Part shown: in pieces, positions 7,280 through 59,915 of the stretch | How positions within the stretch are numbered: position 1 is the first letter of the stretch | Layout of the letters: each line of letters opens with the position of its first letter | Assembly (NCBI GenBank): GCA_027449685.1 | Contig: DAIDLC010000002.1 | Location: 1 to 64,000, forward strand | Direction: 5' to 3' | DNA: 64,000 nt | DNA from: Ferrovaceae bacterium | Lineage (GTDB): Bacteria > Pseudomonadota > Gammaproteobacteria > Burkholderiales > Ferrovaceae | Made by a program: the position numbers and the translations under genes | Notes under the pieces: model-generated | What the model was told of the DNA's origin: nothing | What the model saw: the letters and a program-made list of their open reading frames with translations, nothing else | Databases searched by the model: none

Positions 7280-7320
7280 TTGCATATCCTCGCTGGCGTA
7301 TCTACAATGTAGAAACGCCA
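7280..7320 (+). promoter_or_regulatory. mazEF promoter with palindromic operator
   Basis: -35 TTGCAT (7280-7285) and -10 TACAAT (7303-7308) are separated by exactly 17 bp. A 27-bp near-perfect palindrome (7294-7320, 12 of 13 arm pairs, core TCTACAATGTAGA) covers the -10 box and start region. This is the expected place for binding by a dimeric MazE/AbrB-fold antitoxin, giving autorepression. The ribosome site AAAGGAGA of the antitoxin begins directly after it. Confidence 0.85.
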
Positions 7321-7334
7321 AAAGGAGATCCGTC

Positions 7335-7577
7335 ATGGAAGCCGTCATTCGCAAATGGGGTAACAGTCCCGCTGTTCGCTTGCCAACCAACGTTTTGAGG
7401 GAGGCAGGTTATCAACTCGAGCAGAAAGTTGACCTGATTGTTTCACGTGGCCGCATCGTCATACAGCCGTCTGAAAAGGTGGAATACGACCTTGATGACC
7501 TCATCAGTGGCATCAACTCGTCCAATGTCCATAACGAGGTGAGCTTCGGATCACCGGTTGGTAACGAGGTACTTTGA
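7335..7577 (+). CDS. MazE/AbrB-type antitoxin
   Basis: An 80-aa protein with a swapped-hairpin AbrB DNA-binding domain: EAVIRKWGNSPAVRLP is the diagnostic N-terminal motif. A short acidic tail (YDLDDLISGI) is likely to block the toxin. It should neutralise the toxin encoded next and repress the operon through the palindrome at 7294-7320. Strong ribosome site AAAGGAGA 6 bp before ATG 7335. The stop TGA overlaps the toxin ATG (TGATG). Close to MazE/ChpBI/PemI; the exact subfamily is not assigned. Confidence 0.93.
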   Translation: MEAVIRKWGNSPAVRLPTNVLREAGYQLEQKVDLIVSRGRIVIQPSEKVEYDLDDLISGINSSNVHNEVSFGSPVGNEVL

Positions 7578-7918
7578 TGCCGCGCGCTTATGTTCCCGAC
7601 ACAGGCGAGGTGGTTTGGCTTGAATTTGATCCTCAGGCTGGGCATGAACAGGCCGGCCACCGACCTGCGTTGGTCATCAGTCCAGCAAGCTACAACGGCA
7701 AAACCGGATTGATGGTGTGCTGCCCGATGTCGACCAAGATCAAGGGGCACCCATTTGAAGTCGTGACGCAGGTCGATAGCGTGGATTGCGCGGTACTTTC
7801 GGATCAAGTGAAATCGCTCGACTGGAAAGTCCGGCGTGCCAAAAAGAAGGCTGTCGTTAGCGAGGATGTCCTGGTGCATGTCAGGGCCAAGATGAAGGCG
7901 TTGTTGCAAATCTCCTGA
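7577..7918 (+). CDS. MazF/PemK-family mRNA-cleaving toxin
   Basis: A 113-aa endoribonuclease of the MazF/PemK/ChpB fold. The first strands carry GEVVWLEFDPQAGHEQAGHRPALVISP, written here as pieces GEVVWLEFDP and GHEQAGHRPALVIS, including the conserved catalytic Arg after GH and the Ser/Thr-rich strand. VLSDQVKSLDW is the usual second conserved block. Start is ATG 7577 in TGATG with the antitoxin; a TTG one codon earlier is possible. Full-length and apparently intact. Its cleavage sequence cannot be predicted. Confidence 0.93.
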   Translation: MPRAYVPDTGEVVWLEFDPQAGHEQAGHRPALVISPASYNGKTGLMVCCPMSTKIKGHPFEVVTQVDSVDCAVLSDQVKSLDWKVRRAKKKAVVSEDVLVHVRAKMKALLQIS

Positions 7919-8032
7919 AGGTAGTTTGCGAATGGCGACCATTTTTCGCGCTCACTGTGAATGGATTGTGAACGGACATAGGGTTTTCGGTGATGAGATG
8001 ACCCGGAGATTATCTTAAGCCATTGTTTTTAT

Positions 8033-8108
8033 TGGTGCCGACAGAAGGAATCGAACCCTCGACCTTCTGATTACAAATCAGCTGCTCTACCATCTGAGCT
8101 ATGCCGGC
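8033..8108 (-). tRNA. tRNA-Thr (anticodon TGT)
   Basis: 76 nt with acceptor GCCGGCA/TGTCGGC, anticodon stem CTGA/TCAG around loop TTTGTAA (TGT), T-loop TTCGATT and an encoded CCA. It stands alone downstream of sspB. The 114 bp between it and mazF hold no feature I can support. Confidence 0.96.
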
Positions 8109-8128
8109 GTGATCAATCGGACGGAATT

Positions 8129-8551
8129 TTACTTGATAACCGTGAGTGTGGGTTTTTTTTGTTTGCCCGACTTCGGCGCTTCGGGCGCTGGCCTGGTTTC
8201 CTTAAGCAATTCCGGCTCTGAGGCTTGCACGTCTTCCCCCTCGGGTGGAAAAAGCATGCCTTCGCCGGTTTCGCGCGCATAAATCCCCAGTACCGCGTTC
8301 CAGGGGACATAAATGTCGCGGGATACACCCCCGAAACGCGCGTTGAACTGCACGTCCAGATTGCCCAGGATAAGATTCCGGGTGGCCGAAGCGCTGATGT
8401 TCAGGACGATCTGGCCTTCCTTGACGAACTCCGTGGGGACGCGTGCCTGGGTGCCCGTCACCTGAATCTGCAGCAGGGGAGTCAACCCATTATCACCACA
8501 CCATTCCCATATTGCCCGGGTAAGGTAAGGTTTTGTGGAAGAAGTGATCAC
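8129..8551 (-). CDS. sspB: ClpXP protease adaptor SspB
   Basis: Binds ssrA-tagged peptides and hands them to ClpX. 140 aa. The substrate-binding domain has RPYL-like KPYLTRAIWEWC, GQIVLNIS and FNARFGG. A flexible charged linker leads to the C-terminal tail LTVIK, matching the LRVVK-type ClpX-docking motif of E. coli SspB. The start is GTG 8551, immediately after the sspA TAA, so translation is coupled. Confidence 0.95.
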   Translation of the reverse strand: MITSSTKPYLTRAIWEWCGDNGLTPLLQIQVTGTQARVPTEFVKEGQIVLNISASATRNLILGNLDVQFNARFGGVSRDIYVPWNAVLGIYARETGEGMLFPPEGEDVQASEPELLKETRPAPEAPKSGKQKKPTLTVIK

Positions 8552-9151
8552 TTACTTCCTCATGGCTTTTTCGGAAGGGGTCATGGAGTCGATGAAGGCC
8601 TGCCGCGAGAACAAACGTTCGGCATATTTCAACAGCGCCGCAGCAGTTTTCGGCAAAGTGATCTGGTATAGCTCCAAACGCCACAACAGAGGGGCCACAG
8701 CCACATCCAGCATGGTAAATTCGTCGCCCAGCATGAACTTCTGTTTGACGAAAACAGGCGCAATCTGGATCAGGTTTTCACGAATCAAGACCCGCGCCTT
8801 CTCGGCAGCCTTGGTATTTCCTGATTCCAGCGTAGTCACATGAGAAAACAGCTCTGCTTCGAAGCGATACAGAAACAACCGGGCGCGAGCGCGCATTACG
8901 GGATCAGCCGGCATCAATTGCGGATGGGGAAAGCGCTCGTCGATGTACTCGTTGATGATATTGGATTCGTACAAAATCAAATCGCGTTCCACCAGGATGG
9001 GAACGCGATTGTACGGATTCATCACCCCGATGTCTTCGGGCATGTTAAACAGGTCCACGTCGATGATCTGAAAATCCATGCCCTTTTCGAACAGCACGAT
9101 ACGGCAGCGCTGGCTGAAGGGGCAAGTGGTCCCTGAATACAATGTCATCAT
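8552..9151 (-). CDS. sspA: Stringent starvation protein A (GST fold)
   Basis: A glutathione-S-transferase-fold regulator that binds RNA polymerase in enterics. About 200 aa. Thioredoxin-like N-terminus MTLYSGTTCPFSQRCRIVL, followed by the NPYNRVPILVERDLILYES block where PVLV/ES contacts glutathione in true GSTs. It sits between petC and sspB, the usual betaproteobacterial order, probably on the same transcript. Two ATGs (9151, 9148) are possible starts. Confidence 0.94.
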   Translation of the reverse strand: MMTLYSGTTCPFSQRCRIVLFEKGMDFQIIDVDLFNMPEDIGVMNPYNRVPILVERDLILYESNIINEYIDERFPHPQLMPADPVMRARARLFLYRFEAELFSHVTTLESGNTKAAEKARVLIRENLIQIAPVFVKQKFMLGDEFTMLDVAVAPLLWRLELYQITLPKTAAALLKYAERLFSRQAFIDSMTPSEKAMRK

Positions 9152-55164: not shown

Positions 55165-55374
55165 ATGGCAGTCAACCTCGCTCGAAAGGGTAGGGCACGA
55201 CCTCGCTTGCTCGACCTATCACCTCACCCATCATTGATCGGCGCCCCTTGTTCCATCCTCACCCTCTTTGTCGCCGTTGGTAGCGCCTTCCCCCTGGCAA
55301 AAACCTGGAATTCATTGAAAGCGTTGCACCCCAGCCATCCCGGCGCGCTCACAATAGGAGAAAGTCATGTCTGA
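55165..55374 (+). CDS. Small unassigned protein upstream of DUF485
   Basis: 69 aa from ATG 55165, 4 bp after an excellent ribosome site (ACGGAGGAAAA). Basic N-terminus (ARKGRARPRL), a central hydrophobic stretch (CSILTLFVAVGSAFPLA) that could span the membrane once, and a short tail. Its last 8 bp overlap the DUF485 start, whose own AGGAGA lies inside it. Position and ribosome site argue for translation; I recognise no family. Alternatives: a leader peptide or a fortuitous frame. Confidence 0.45.
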   Translation: MAVNLARKGRARPRLLDLSPHPSLIGAPCSILTLFVAVGSAFPLAKTWNSLKALHPSHPGALTIGESHV

Positions 55375-55678
55375 AATATCCGCAGATCACATTCAAAACA
55401 ATCCGAAGTATCACCAACTCATCAAACAGCGAGATGCTTTGGCCTGGAGCTTATCGGCCATCGTTTGTGTCATGTATTTCGGCTTTACGCTCATGATCGC
55501 CTTCACTCCCGACGTCTTGACAGCGCCCATTTCGGCCGACAGCGTGATTCCCCAAGGCATGCTCATCGGCGTGGGAGTCATTTTAGGGTCCATCATTCTG
55601 ACCGGTGTTTATGTCGCGCGCGCCAACGGTCAGTTCGATACGCTCACTGACGAAATCATTCAGGAATCACTCAAATGA
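55367..55678 (+). CDS. DUF485 inner-membrane protein (YjcH-like)
   Basis: 103 aa. Two membrane helices ([18 protein letters not shown] and [24 protein letters not shown], key piece GVYVARAN) with the family [16 protein letters not shown]-terminus. Nearly always just before actP; presumed accessory subunit. AGGAG 7 bp before ATG 55367; the stop overlaps actP (ATGA). Confidence 0.95.
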
Positions 55679-57384
55679 GACTATTTCACTCTACTCTCCG
55701 CACCCTTGCCGCTTTATGTACCGGTTTTATATGCAATCTGGCCTGGAGCGCCGATGCGCCCACCGCACCCGGTGCCCCCCCTGCGTCTCCCCCAATCAAC
55801 TGGGAGGCCATCATCATGTTCGTCATTTTTGTGGCTATTACCCTGGGGATTACCTATTGGGCTGCCAAACGCACCAAGTCAGCTTCTGATTTCTACGCTG
55901 CGGGTCGGGGCATTACCGGTTTGCAAAACGGCATGGCAATTGCCGGGGACTATATGTCCGCTGCTTCTTTTCTTGGCATTGCCGCGCTGGTGTACATGAA
56001 TGGGTTTTATGGACTGATCTTTTCTGTAGGCTGGCTGGTGGGTTGGCCCATTATTTTGTTCACGGTGGCCGAACGCTTGCGTAATCTGGGTAAATACACC
56101 TACGCCGATGTGGCCTCTTTCCGACTGCAACAGGGCCCCGTACGAACCATGGCAGCCATTGGTTCTCTCATCGTAGTGCTCTGGTATCTCATTGGCCAGG
56201 CGGTGGGTGCTGGGCAGTTATTGCATACCCTGGTGCCACAAATTTCCTATACTCAATCCATCATCATTGTCGGTACACTGATCATCATTTACGTCACCTT
56301 TGGTGGCATGAAGGCCACCACCTGGGTGCAGATCATCAAGGCTGCCCTGCTGCTGGGTGGTGCCACGCTGATTGCTTTTGGTGTCATGGCCCATGAAGGC
56401 TTCAGCTTCGAAAAACTGTTCGCTGATGCCGTTGCCATCCACCCCAAACACCTGGACATCATGAAGTCTGTAGTGCCCATTGGCGCCAAGGCCAACCCCG
56501 TGGAATCCATTTCCCTGGGACTGACGCTAATGTTTGGCACTGCTGGATTGCCACATATTTTGATGCGTTTCTTTACCGTCACCAACGCCAAGGCTGCCCG
56601 TAAATCAGTGCTCTACGGCACCTGCTTCATTGGCTATTTCTATATCCTGACCTTCATCATCGGTTTCGGCGCCATCGTCATGGTGGCCAACCATCCGGAA
56701 TACGTGGTGGACGTATCCAAGAACATCCTGGCCTTGAAGGGTGGTGGCAGTATGCCGGCGGTGTATTTGTCGCATGCCGTAGGGGGTGACCTGTTCCTTG
56801 GATTCATCGCTGCCGTGGCCTTTGCCACCATTCTGGCCGTGGTCTCTGGCTTGACCATGGCGGGAGCCTCGGCATTGTCCCATGACATTTATGCCAATGT
56901 GATCAAGAAGGGCACTGCCACGGAAGCTGAAGAAATATGGGTGTCCAAAGTATGTGTCATCGGCTTGGGAATCCTGGCGATCTTGCTCGGGATTGCCTTT
57001 GAGAAGCAAAACGTGGCCTACATCGTGGCCCTGACCTTCTCGATCGCCGCTTGTTCCAATTTCCCGATTCTGGTTCTGTCCATCTTCTGGCGTGGGCTCA
57101 CCACACGCGGTGCTGTGTTGGGCGGCTATACGGGAATTTTTGGTTCCATCGGGTTATTGATCATCGGACCCACGGTCTGGACCAAAGTGTTGGGTAATGG
57201 CCCGGCCATTTTCCCCTACGACTTCCCGACCTTCGTGGTGTTACCGCTCGTTCTGATCGTGGCTTACGTGTTTTCGGTCACGGATAACAGCGAAAGTGCC
57301 GCCAAGGAACGGGCTGCCTTCGACCGCCAGAAAATCCGCTCCGAAACCGGCCTGGGCGCAGAAGTATCCGCAGCTGTGCACTGA
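55675..57384 (+). CDS. actP: Cation/acetate symporter
   Basis: 569 aa, SSS family, 13-14 helices. Cleavable signal peptide (ending LAWSADA), as in E. coli Act[31 protein letters not shown] (key pieces [18 protein letters not shown]) covers the sodium site region. Imports acetate/glycolate-like acids with a cation. Last gene of its operon. Confidence 0.95.
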
Positions 57385-57409: not shown

Positions 57410-57442
57410 AAGGCCCCGGGGCAAGTCCCGGGGCCTTTTTTT
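57410..57442 (+). terminator. Rho-independent terminator after actP
   Basis: Perfect 11-bp stem AAGGCCCCGGG with its complement, 6-nt loop, then a run of seven T. It also separates actP from the convergent exonuclease gene, and may work in both directions. Confidence 0.95.
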
Positions 57443-57477
57443 GTGCTCACGACACGGCCTGGCTACGCCTTCTGATC

Positions 57478-58101
57478 TCAGCCCCGTTTGAGCAGACGCC
57501 GCAATTTGACGAACATCAGAGCCGTCATCAGCGCATCGCTCAAGGCATCATGGGCCTCCCCCAGAATGGGCAGCTCAAGATCCTGGCGGATGGCTTCAAA
57601 ACTCAAGTCCACGTTACTGTCCCAACGTTTGGCGAATTTGTAGTCGTAATACATCCCTGACACCTCGATCTTGGTCTGCGGCAAGCCCACTCCCAGGAGG
57701 GGCTGCACCAGACGATTCAGCATGGCCACGTCAAACTCCAGGTAATAACCCACCAAAGGACGGTTCCCGACAAAGGCTAGAAAGCGTTCGGCCGCTTCGC
57801 TCGACGTCATCCCTGCCTCCAGGTCCTTGTGGCGTAACCGGTGGATCAGGATATTTTCCTTCTTCAAGGTTCCCGCAGGTTTGATGAGTAACTCCAGTCG
57901 CTGGCTCGTGAGAATGTGATTGCCTCGAATAGGAATCGCCCCAATGGAGATGATTTCATCCTGTCGCGGGTTGAGCCCGGTGGTTTCGCAATCCACGCTG
58001 ACCCATTCGTTTTCTGGCGCAGGATCGAGCAGCGACAAATAGCTGGGGTGACGCAAACCATGCCGCCAGCGCCATCTCCTGAACCAGTCAGCAGGGCTCA
58101 T
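57478..58101 (-). CDS. DEDDh 3'-5' exonuclease (DnaQ-like)
   Basis: 207 aa. ExoI motif VDCETTGLNP (D, E), ExoII VGYYLEFDVAML (D), and ExoIII HDALSDALMT (H, D): all catalytic acids present. Not the polymerase III epsilon subunit itself: it lacks the polymerase-binding tail and opens with a Trp/Arg-rich stretch (WFRRWRWRHG). ATG 58101 is in TGATG with the DUF294 gene, so the pair is coupled. Substrate unknown. Confidence 0.9.
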   Translation of the reverse strand: MSPADWFRRWRWRHGLRHPSYLSLLDPAPENEWVSVDCETTGLNPRQDEIISIGAIPIRGNHILTSQRLELLIKPAGTLKKENILIHRLRHKDLEAGMTSSEAAERFLAFVGNRPLVGYYLEFDVAMLNRLVQPLLGVGLPQTKIEVSGMYYDYKFAKRWDSNVDLSFEAIRQDLELPILGEAHDALSDALMTALMFVKLRRLLKRG

Positions 58102-59915
58102 CACAAGGTGTCCAGTCTGAAGTGAAAATGCAGCAACTGCTTGAAACGTTTCACGACCTGCAAACTATCCCGCAACAAATCCCGCTCCAGGGTGCTGAGG
58201 CGATCCAGGTGGATGAGATGGCTGGGGCGTTGCCCCACAGAGAGCATCTGCAAGCCCTGGCGCAAGCGCATATCCATCAGGAAGGCCAAAGCTTCGTGCA
58301 GGTCCTGAACGAGATCATGGGGCAGACGCTGACTCTGTTCCAGCGCATCCAAGCGCTCCCGGGTGCCATTGACGGCCAAACGGGCCTCCAACGCCAGGCT
58401 CCGCACCCCATGCACAATAGGGAAAATGCCCAGTTTCTTGATATCGATGACATCCGGCGAGTCCGCGCCAGGCAACAGCCGGGACCACCATCCCCCAGGG
58501 CCCCCAAACTGATCCACGGCCCGCGCAAATTGCGCCAAAAACTGGGGAGACTGTTGCAGGATGTCACGAAAATACTGTTTCAGCGCTTCCAGCAAGTTGC
58601 GATCTCCGCACACCGCGGCGGCATCCGTAAAAATAGCCAAACGTATGGGAGATTCCGCAGTAGGATGATAAATCCATTGCCGCAACGTTTCCTGGAATGC
58701 CTCTAGCGTTTGGCACCAGATGGGATTGCGCATCATGATTCCCCCTGGGCAGGGGGGATAGCCAAACTCACATAGGGCATCATTGAAGCGGCTGGTAATG
58801 GCGATCAGATCCGGATGCTGGTACCCATTACGCAAAATCAGACCATTATCCTGATCGGTTTTAAGTAGTTGTTCCCCCCGTCCCTCGCTGCCCATGACCA
58901 TGACACAGCTATTTTCAATCAACTCCGTTGGAGCCAGCAGACGCCAGAGTCTTCCAAATACCTTGGCGTTGAGCTCCTGCACCAATTTGGCAATCAGGCT
59001 TACCTTGACTTCGCTTTCACTGAGCAATTGAATCAGCCGCTGTATCTGTTGACAGGCCAGCTTGAGCTCATCCACGGTATCTGCCTGCTGAATCTGATAC
59101 CAGATCAGATGCGAATGATTGGAAATGAAGCTCAACAGATCCAGTTGCTCCAGCACCCCCACGACCACCTGGCTGCGCTTGACCACGACCCGATGCACAC
59201 CATGCCGAATCATCAAAATCAAGGCTTCGAAGACGGATTCATCCGCTTGCACATCGATCAGCGCCCAGGTGGTCAATCGGCCCACAGGAGTGTTTTTGGG
59301 ATCGTCTCCCGACAGGATGATTTTGCGAATATCGGTCGTAGTGAAGATACCCAGACGCTCCGGGCTACTGCCTTGCACCAATACGTGGTTTAATTGCTCT
59401 GCTTCCAGCATTTGTGCCACCTGGAACACCGATCGATGTTCCTCCACGTACACGGGCATGCGGACATAGGCCTGCTCGATCCTCGACACCATGAGCGAAT
59501 GCAATTCCCGTTGCGTGCGTCGCTCGCTCAAGGTCCGAAGTTTTTGCGAGATATCCGAAAAGAGGAGCGCTCCAAAACTGACGTTGGCCGCAATCAAGCG
59601 TTTGACCGTTGCCTCCGGCAGCAAATAAACAATGGCTTCTTCCACGGCCACAAAGCGTCCCACCACTTTGCCAGCCATGAGCGCGCGCCCATCAAAGGTT
59701 TCATCCTGACCATACAGATACACTTCTTCTTCTTGCTCGCTTTGGCGCACCCGTCCCTTGACCACCACGAATAAGTGACTTGGCACCGTATTGGGCGCCA
59801 AAATTACACTGCCTTCCGGATAGTAGGCCATGTCGACGCTATTCCTCACCCATTGCTGCTGTTCTGCAGTCAACACATCAAAAGGTGGGACTGAAAAATT
59901 AAAAGATTTTGCCAT
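58101..59915 (-). CDS. cNMP-binding, CBS and DUF294 nucleotidyltransferase-like protein
   Basis: 604 aa, soluble. In order: cNMP-binding fold (~10-130), two CBS domains (~150-265), a GlnD-like nucleotidyltransferase (DUF294, ~295-445) with [17 protein letters not shown] at 342-358 carrying the GS and the D-x-D metal ligands, and a DUF294_C helical domain to the end. Architecture suggests a nucleotide-sensing enzyme that may modify a protein, as GlnD/GlnE do; the substrate is unknown. Operon with the exonuclease; converges on actP, diverges from argH. Confidence 0.88.

Follow-up and report, generated by a model that had tools for sequence, protein, structure and literature searches.

Gene pairs resembling the one analyzed here have previously been described in Pseudomonas, where a CBS/DUF294-type protein is encoded with an RNase_T exonuclease downstream, as in PP_0354/PP_0353 of P. 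putida and PA3233/PA3232 of P. aeruginosa, with Pflu5625 of P. fluorescens as a further example; in P. aeruginosa PAO1 the pair adjoins actP-yjcH (PMC9927547, PMC5715377, PMC9765439). The Pseudomonas pair belongs to the CrbS/R (MxtR/ErdR) regulon and is associated with the ACTU motif. In P. putida, the PP_0354 promoter is bound by ErdR (PMC8402216), and in P. fluorescens, Pflu5625 is likewise in the CrbS/R regulon, with its deletion having a negligible effect on acetate (PMC5715377). When P. putida was grown on pyruvate, growth was slower in both the ΔPP_0353 and the ΔactP-I strains, while the ΔPP_0354 strain was similar to the wild type (PMC9927547), a phenotype that is modest and comes from one report in one species. 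The gene pair and its link to ActP are therefore already published in Pseudomonas and are not new. In Bacilli (Geobacillus, Anoxybacillus, Paenibacillus, and Brevibacillus), a DUF294-dnaQ pair has been found in amtB operons, mostly in species listed as lacking glnK (PMC3412718). We found no biochemical function for any DUF294 member in the literature searched.

Two better-characterized groups of enzymes provide points of comparison. GlnD and GlnE resemble DUF294 proteins in possessing a Pol-beta-fold transferase and a related C-terminal helical domain (PMC3710099), and GlnD, the PII uridylyltransferase/uridylyl-removing enzyme, carries small-molecule sensing domains and acts on GlnK, which in turn controls AmtB. 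MntA, of the HepT/MntA (HEPN/MNT) system, shares the GSX10DXD active motif with DUF294 proteins, and attaches three AMPs to a tyrosine of a protein, a modification that snake venom phosphodiesterase can remove (PMC7641770).

Organization of the locus in Ferrovaceae

The window, that is, the whole 64,000-nucleotide stretch of DNA analyzed, derives from the Ferrovaceae-like genome, 1.86 Mb in size, of a bacterium resembling iron oxidisers, and a single DUF294-domain protein was found in this assembly, which is 83% complete. The closest database relatives of this 604-aa protein, at 64% identity, are found in two Ferrovum/Ferrovaceae MAGs. The locus comprises the following features:

55367..55678, plus strand: DUF485 small membrane partner, YjcH-like (Pfam)
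55675..57384, plus strand: ActP cation/acetate symporter of the SSS family (PRK09395, 796 bits, cut-off 750)
57410..57437, no strand: terminator-like stem between the convergent units (12 pairs plus a T-run)
57478..58101, minus strand: DEDDh 3'-5' exonuclease, PRK09145 equivalog (ORF, Pfam, NCBIfam, catalytic residues)
58101..59915, minus strand: DUF294 family protein, 604 aa (ORF list and Pfam scan)

The ATG of the exonuclease at 58101 overlaps the stop codon of the DUF294 gene as TGATG, with a GTG at 58104, one codon upstream, as a possible alternative start. On the opposite strand, the DUF485 and ActP ORFs overlap as ATGA. The two units lie tail-to-tail and are separated by the strong terminator-like stem, implying that DUF485-actP and the pair are probably not co-transcribed here. 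The preliminary description of this DNA had reported both the tail-to-tail arrangement and the translational coupling to an exonuclease with complete catalytic acids, and these observations were confirmed. The argH gene is divergent from the pair, with 59 bases between the starts.

We equated the window pair with the Pseudomonas pair by annotation and neighbourhood. The two differ in arrangement, in that the Ferrovaceae pair is tail-to-tail with actP whereas the Pseudomonas pair follows it, and apparently also in regulation. No CrbS-like SSF-kinase fusion was seen in the window's own genome (83% complete) or in ten Ferrovaceae genomes that are 92-99% complete, the SSF proteins all being of transporter length, and no match to the ACTU inverted repeat, a gammaproteobacterial motif that may differ here, was found near the window genes. 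CrbS/R is thus not supported as a regulator here, and the pair is apparently kept in this lineage without it.

Among Ferrovaceae, the block groEL-DUF485-actP-[exo-DUF294]-argH-marR-lysA is syntenic. The transferase was found in 17 of 32 genomes, all of which also encode ActP and the orthologous exonuclease; an additional genome, whose contig ends at this locus, carries the exonuclease and actP, and the 11 genomes without ActP are also without the transferase. At both loci read from genus g217 (L154 and L155), the interval from actP to argH lacks the pair, which in two genomes (G276 and G277) is located elsewhere without a neighbouring ActP. This combination of absence and joint relocation indicates that gain, loss, and movement affect the two genes together. 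The transferase (64% identity) and exonuclease (60%) evolve faster than ActP (about 90%), and both are under purifying selection (dN/dS of about 0.03-0.14). In one Ferrovaceae genome (L149, G303:C1, about 7300-8720), actP is interrupted by 1.4 kb of inserted DNA carrying a transposase-like ORF, and the adjoining exo-DUF294 pair is intact.

Domains and catalytic residues of the two proteins

The domains and active-site residues of the DUF294 protein were placed as follows:

59583..59825, minus strand: cNMP_binding-like domain, residues 31-111 (Pfam, 33 bits; canonical phosphate-binding cassette absent)
59121..59468, minus strand: tandem CBS region, about residues 150-265 (Pfam and motif; CBS1 has G-h-x-[ST]-x-x-D, as GIFTTTD)
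58656..59051, minus strand: DUF294 nucleotidyltransferase domain, residues 289-420 (Pfam)
58848..58892, minus strand: active-site motif GSX10DXD, residues 342-356 (alignment of homologues)
58623..58625, minus strand: D431, invariant third acidic residue (29/29 and 74/74), just beyond the Pfam DUF294 match
58119..58547, minus strand: DUF294_C, putative substrate-binding helical domain, residues 457-599 (Pfam)

The catalytic half is well supported by profile matches (DUF294, PF03445, 139.5 bits against a cut-off of 21; DUF294_C, PF10335, 138.7 bits against 22.5). The second CBS domain (residues 219-265) scored 44 bits with Pfam CBS, while the first, at about residues 155-200, falls below the Pfam threshold when taken alone. 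The cNMP-like, two CBS, and DUF294 components of the architecture given in the preliminary description therefore stand, together with DUF294_C, with the qualifications that the cNMP-like domain is without its canonical cassette and that the first CBS is sub-threshold. In contrast to GlnD, a Pfam scan detected neither an HD-type removing domain nor ACT domains in the window protein, which instead has cNMP-like and CBS domains; if a removing enzyme exists, the separate exonuclease would fill that role. MntA differs as well, being a minimal protein of 139 aa that modifies a toxin RNase, compared with a protein of 604 aa that has sensor domains and transporter partner genes.

To assess conservation we used 103 aligned homologues, consisting of 29 that are ActP-linked, a set that includes a few duplicate genomes, and 74 others. 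The GSX10DXD motif, which is that of protein adenylyltransferases, was present in 101 of the 103. D354, D356, and D431, all present in the window's transferase, were kept in 28, 29, and 29 of the 29 ActP-linked proteins and in 73, 74, and 74 of the 74 others, so that the metal-binding Asp residues, on whose retention the earlier reading of an apparently active GlnD-like transferase depended, persist in nearly all homologues. The exonuclease matched RNase_T (Pfam, 74 bits) and PRK09145 (NF006601, 269.8 bits, equivalog cut-off 189), and has a complete DEDDh set (D38, E40, D125, H185, and D190) that is invariant in the ActP-linked group (28/28). Given that the catalytic residues are nearly invariant, both proteins look like active enzymes, and the DUF294 protein is probably, judging from its sequence, an active nucleotidyltransferase. 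AlphaFold2 with three-sequence input yielded a pLDDT of 51-52 for both proteins. In PDB sequence and profile searches, the matches listed covered just the cNMP and CBS parts, and the catalytic half searched by itself gave no credible PDB match.

At the D125 position, most exonucleases accompanying non-ActP DUF294 proteins carry Glu instead of the motif II Asp (45/53), making them DEEDh-like, and the subfamily differs by transporter, being PRK09145 with ActP and PRK09146 with BCCT (one case typed). Long exonucleases of 708-745 aa were also observed within a few kb of DUF294 genes that lack the usual short exonuclease (L107 4183-6309, L077 11985-14222, L078 857-3025, and L084 11086-13278), one of them with PAS domains.

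The sensor half of the protein bears on which ligand might be recognized. The cNMP-like domain is present in 29/29 ActP-linked and 70/74 other homologues. The canonical phosphate-binding cassette, G-E-x-n-R-[STA]-A, was found in none of the 103, with E. coli CRP passing as a control, and a search of the window's 83%-complete genome yielded no class III adenylate cyclase. The absence of the cassette renders cyclic-nucleotide sensing, which had been suggested previously, doubtful. The CBS1 ribose-binding motif, G-h-x-[ST]-x-x-[DN], is kept in 26/29 ActP-linked proteins and 67/74 others, and the corresponding CBS2 motif only among the others (54/74). Taken together, the retention of the CBS1 motif in most homologues, the missing cassette, and the lack of a class III cyclase make an adenine nucleotide the better guess, and the most likely ligand would be an adenine nucleotide bound at the CBS1 motif, as opposed to cAMP bound at the cNMP-like domain.

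Association of the pair with secondary transporters

From genomes sampled across the class and across the phylum, we compiled 120 proteobacterial DUF294 loci, selected by DUF294 similarity only; DUF294_C itself was matched at E <= 0.001 in 129 of 299 sampled proteobacterial genomes. An exonuclease lay within 2.5 kb in 103 of the 120 loci, which are not phylogenetically independent since some genomes supply more than one, and the median gap between transferase and exonuclease was -1 nt (69 pairs). SSS symporters lay within 4.5 kb at 75/120 loci and BCCT transporters within 5.5 kb at 17/120, so that one or the other was near in 91 loci, 81 of which also had the exonuclease. By rough estimate, given a few SSS/BCCT genes in a 4-Mb genome, only a few per cent of random genes would be expected to lie so close to one. 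The linked SSS proteins are of either the ActP/DUF485 or the VC_2705/DUF4212 type. Of the other 29 loci, whose neighbours are mixed, two adjoin acetyl-CoA synthetase; 17 of the 120 are without a nearby exonuclease. These results extend to wider genomes the linkage to the exonuclease and to acetate/SSS symporters that the preliminary description had anticipated. Its acetate framing was correct insofar as the ActP linkage is real, but it was too narrow, as the pair is also found beside VC_2705-type symporters, BCCT transporters, and, in Bacilli, amtB (PMC3412718).

The betaine/choline-type BCCT transporters were found beside DUF294-exonuclease pairs at L099 (9139-10824), L187 (8783-10354), and 15 other loci, and we found no published report of this arrangement. 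Two DUF294 genes flank a single symporter at L071, L075, L076, L096, L098, and L114.

From the perspective of the transporter, only 11 of the 34 ActP-like genes sampled from the class had a DUF294 gene within about 5 kb, implying that the transporter does not require the pair, which is rather an accessory to it. The orientation relative to actP is convergent in Ferrovaceae and that of a co-directional operon in other lineages, indicating that the proximity reflects more than one inherited arrangement.

It could be that the two proteins have separate roles, with the DUF294 protein functioning as a ligand-gated regulator that acts by binding, and the exonuclease as a housekeeping DNA/RNA repair enzyme that shares only its promoter. 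The differing phenotypes of the PP_0353 and PP_0354 single mutants (PMC9927547), as well as the 17 DUF294 genes without an adjacent exonuclease, are consistent with this possibility. However, the nearly invariant catalytic residues of both proteins, their exact co-occurrence in Ferrovaceae (17/17 genomes, and an eighteenth in which a contig end cuts the locus), and the movement of the pair as a unit argue against it, and we regard it as unlikely.

A candidate mechanism for the control of uptake

Based on the data presented above, we instead favor a reading in which the pair would constitute a transporter-associated regulatory module. The N-terminal half of the DUF294 protein would sense a ligand, and the protein would transfer an NMP to a protein hydroxyl, thereby lowering uptake; the acceptor may be the Na+-coupled transporter encoded next to the pair, the small subunit of that transporter (DUF485/DUF4212), or a protein that regulates it. 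The coupled DEDDh exonuclease would then strip off the nucleotidyl group, restoring uptake. The chemistry, target, direction of control, and ligand in this scheme are those that we infer, and we assign a probability of roughly 0.4 to its core, that the transporter or a partner receives an inhibitory nucleotidyl group from the transferase and that the exonuclease takes this group off. A circuit in which the writer inhibits and the eraser restores would fit the P. putida mutants, since loss of the putative eraser resembles loss of the transporter and loss of the putative writer resembles the wild type. The nucleotidylation of a protein is also plausible as chemistry, given that MntA, with the same motif, AMPylates tyrosine and that a phosphodiesterase reverses this modification. 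The idea that a protein is modified and that the exonuclease reverses the modification thus appears better motivated than when it was first suggested.

ActP-type and VC_2705-type symporter tails were observed to end in R-x(3)-G-x-G-...-H (L002, L037, L044, L051, L060, and others). This shared C-terminal tail was considered as a target and rejected as not specific, since the tail of E. coli ActP is similar; the E. coli control gave no DUF294_C match.

What counts against a protein-demodifying role is that DEDDh enzymes normally act on nucleic acids. An alternative is that control is exerted on RNA, with the transferase extending and the exonuclease trimming the 3' end of a transporter mRNA, small RNA, or tRNA, and with CBS sensing setting the balance between the two. 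RNA or DNA is the usual substrate of DEDDh/RNase_T exonucleases, and the degradation of central-metabolism mRNAs by PP_0353 has been proposed (PMC9927547). In contrast, the DUF294/DUF294_C architecture groups with GlnD/GlnE-type protein modifiers (Pfam clan, PMC3710099), no RNA-binding domain was matched by Pfam among the window proteins, and the neighbours are transporters rather than RNA genes, so we consider control at the RNA level improbable.

A third possibility is that the pair forms a second-messenger module, in which the transferase would make a small nucleotide signal, the exonuclease would degrade it, and the transporter would be one effector. Oligonucleotide-signal synthases are found among the Pol-beta-fold transferases, short oligonucleotides can be hydrolysed by DEDDh enzymes, and tight two-gene coupling would suit a maker and breaker. 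On the other hand, transporters and their small subunits are the only recurring candidate effectors beside the pair, and DUF294_C resembles a protein-substrate-binding domain; we judge this explanation very unlikely.

Returning to reversible nucleotidylation, the mechanism might be a general one, with DUF294 and DEDDh exonuclease proteins serving as a widespread writer and eraser that reversibly nucleotidylate SSS/ActP, SSS/VC_2705, BCCT, and possibly AmtB transporters, or their small subunits, according to adenylate state. In this broad form the proposal is rather doubtful. What is new here is the breadth of the pair's association with secondary transporters, and association with several transporter kinds suggests, from gene content and neighbourhood, a possible on/off switch for nutrient uptake. 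For acetate/pyruvate, VC_2705-type, and betaine-type uptake, DUF294 pairs are candidates for the missing regulators. If the proposed mechanism is true, the exonuclease would be a candidate for a type of enzyme that removes protein-linked AMP, and reversible protein modification would join the known ways of switching secondary transporters.
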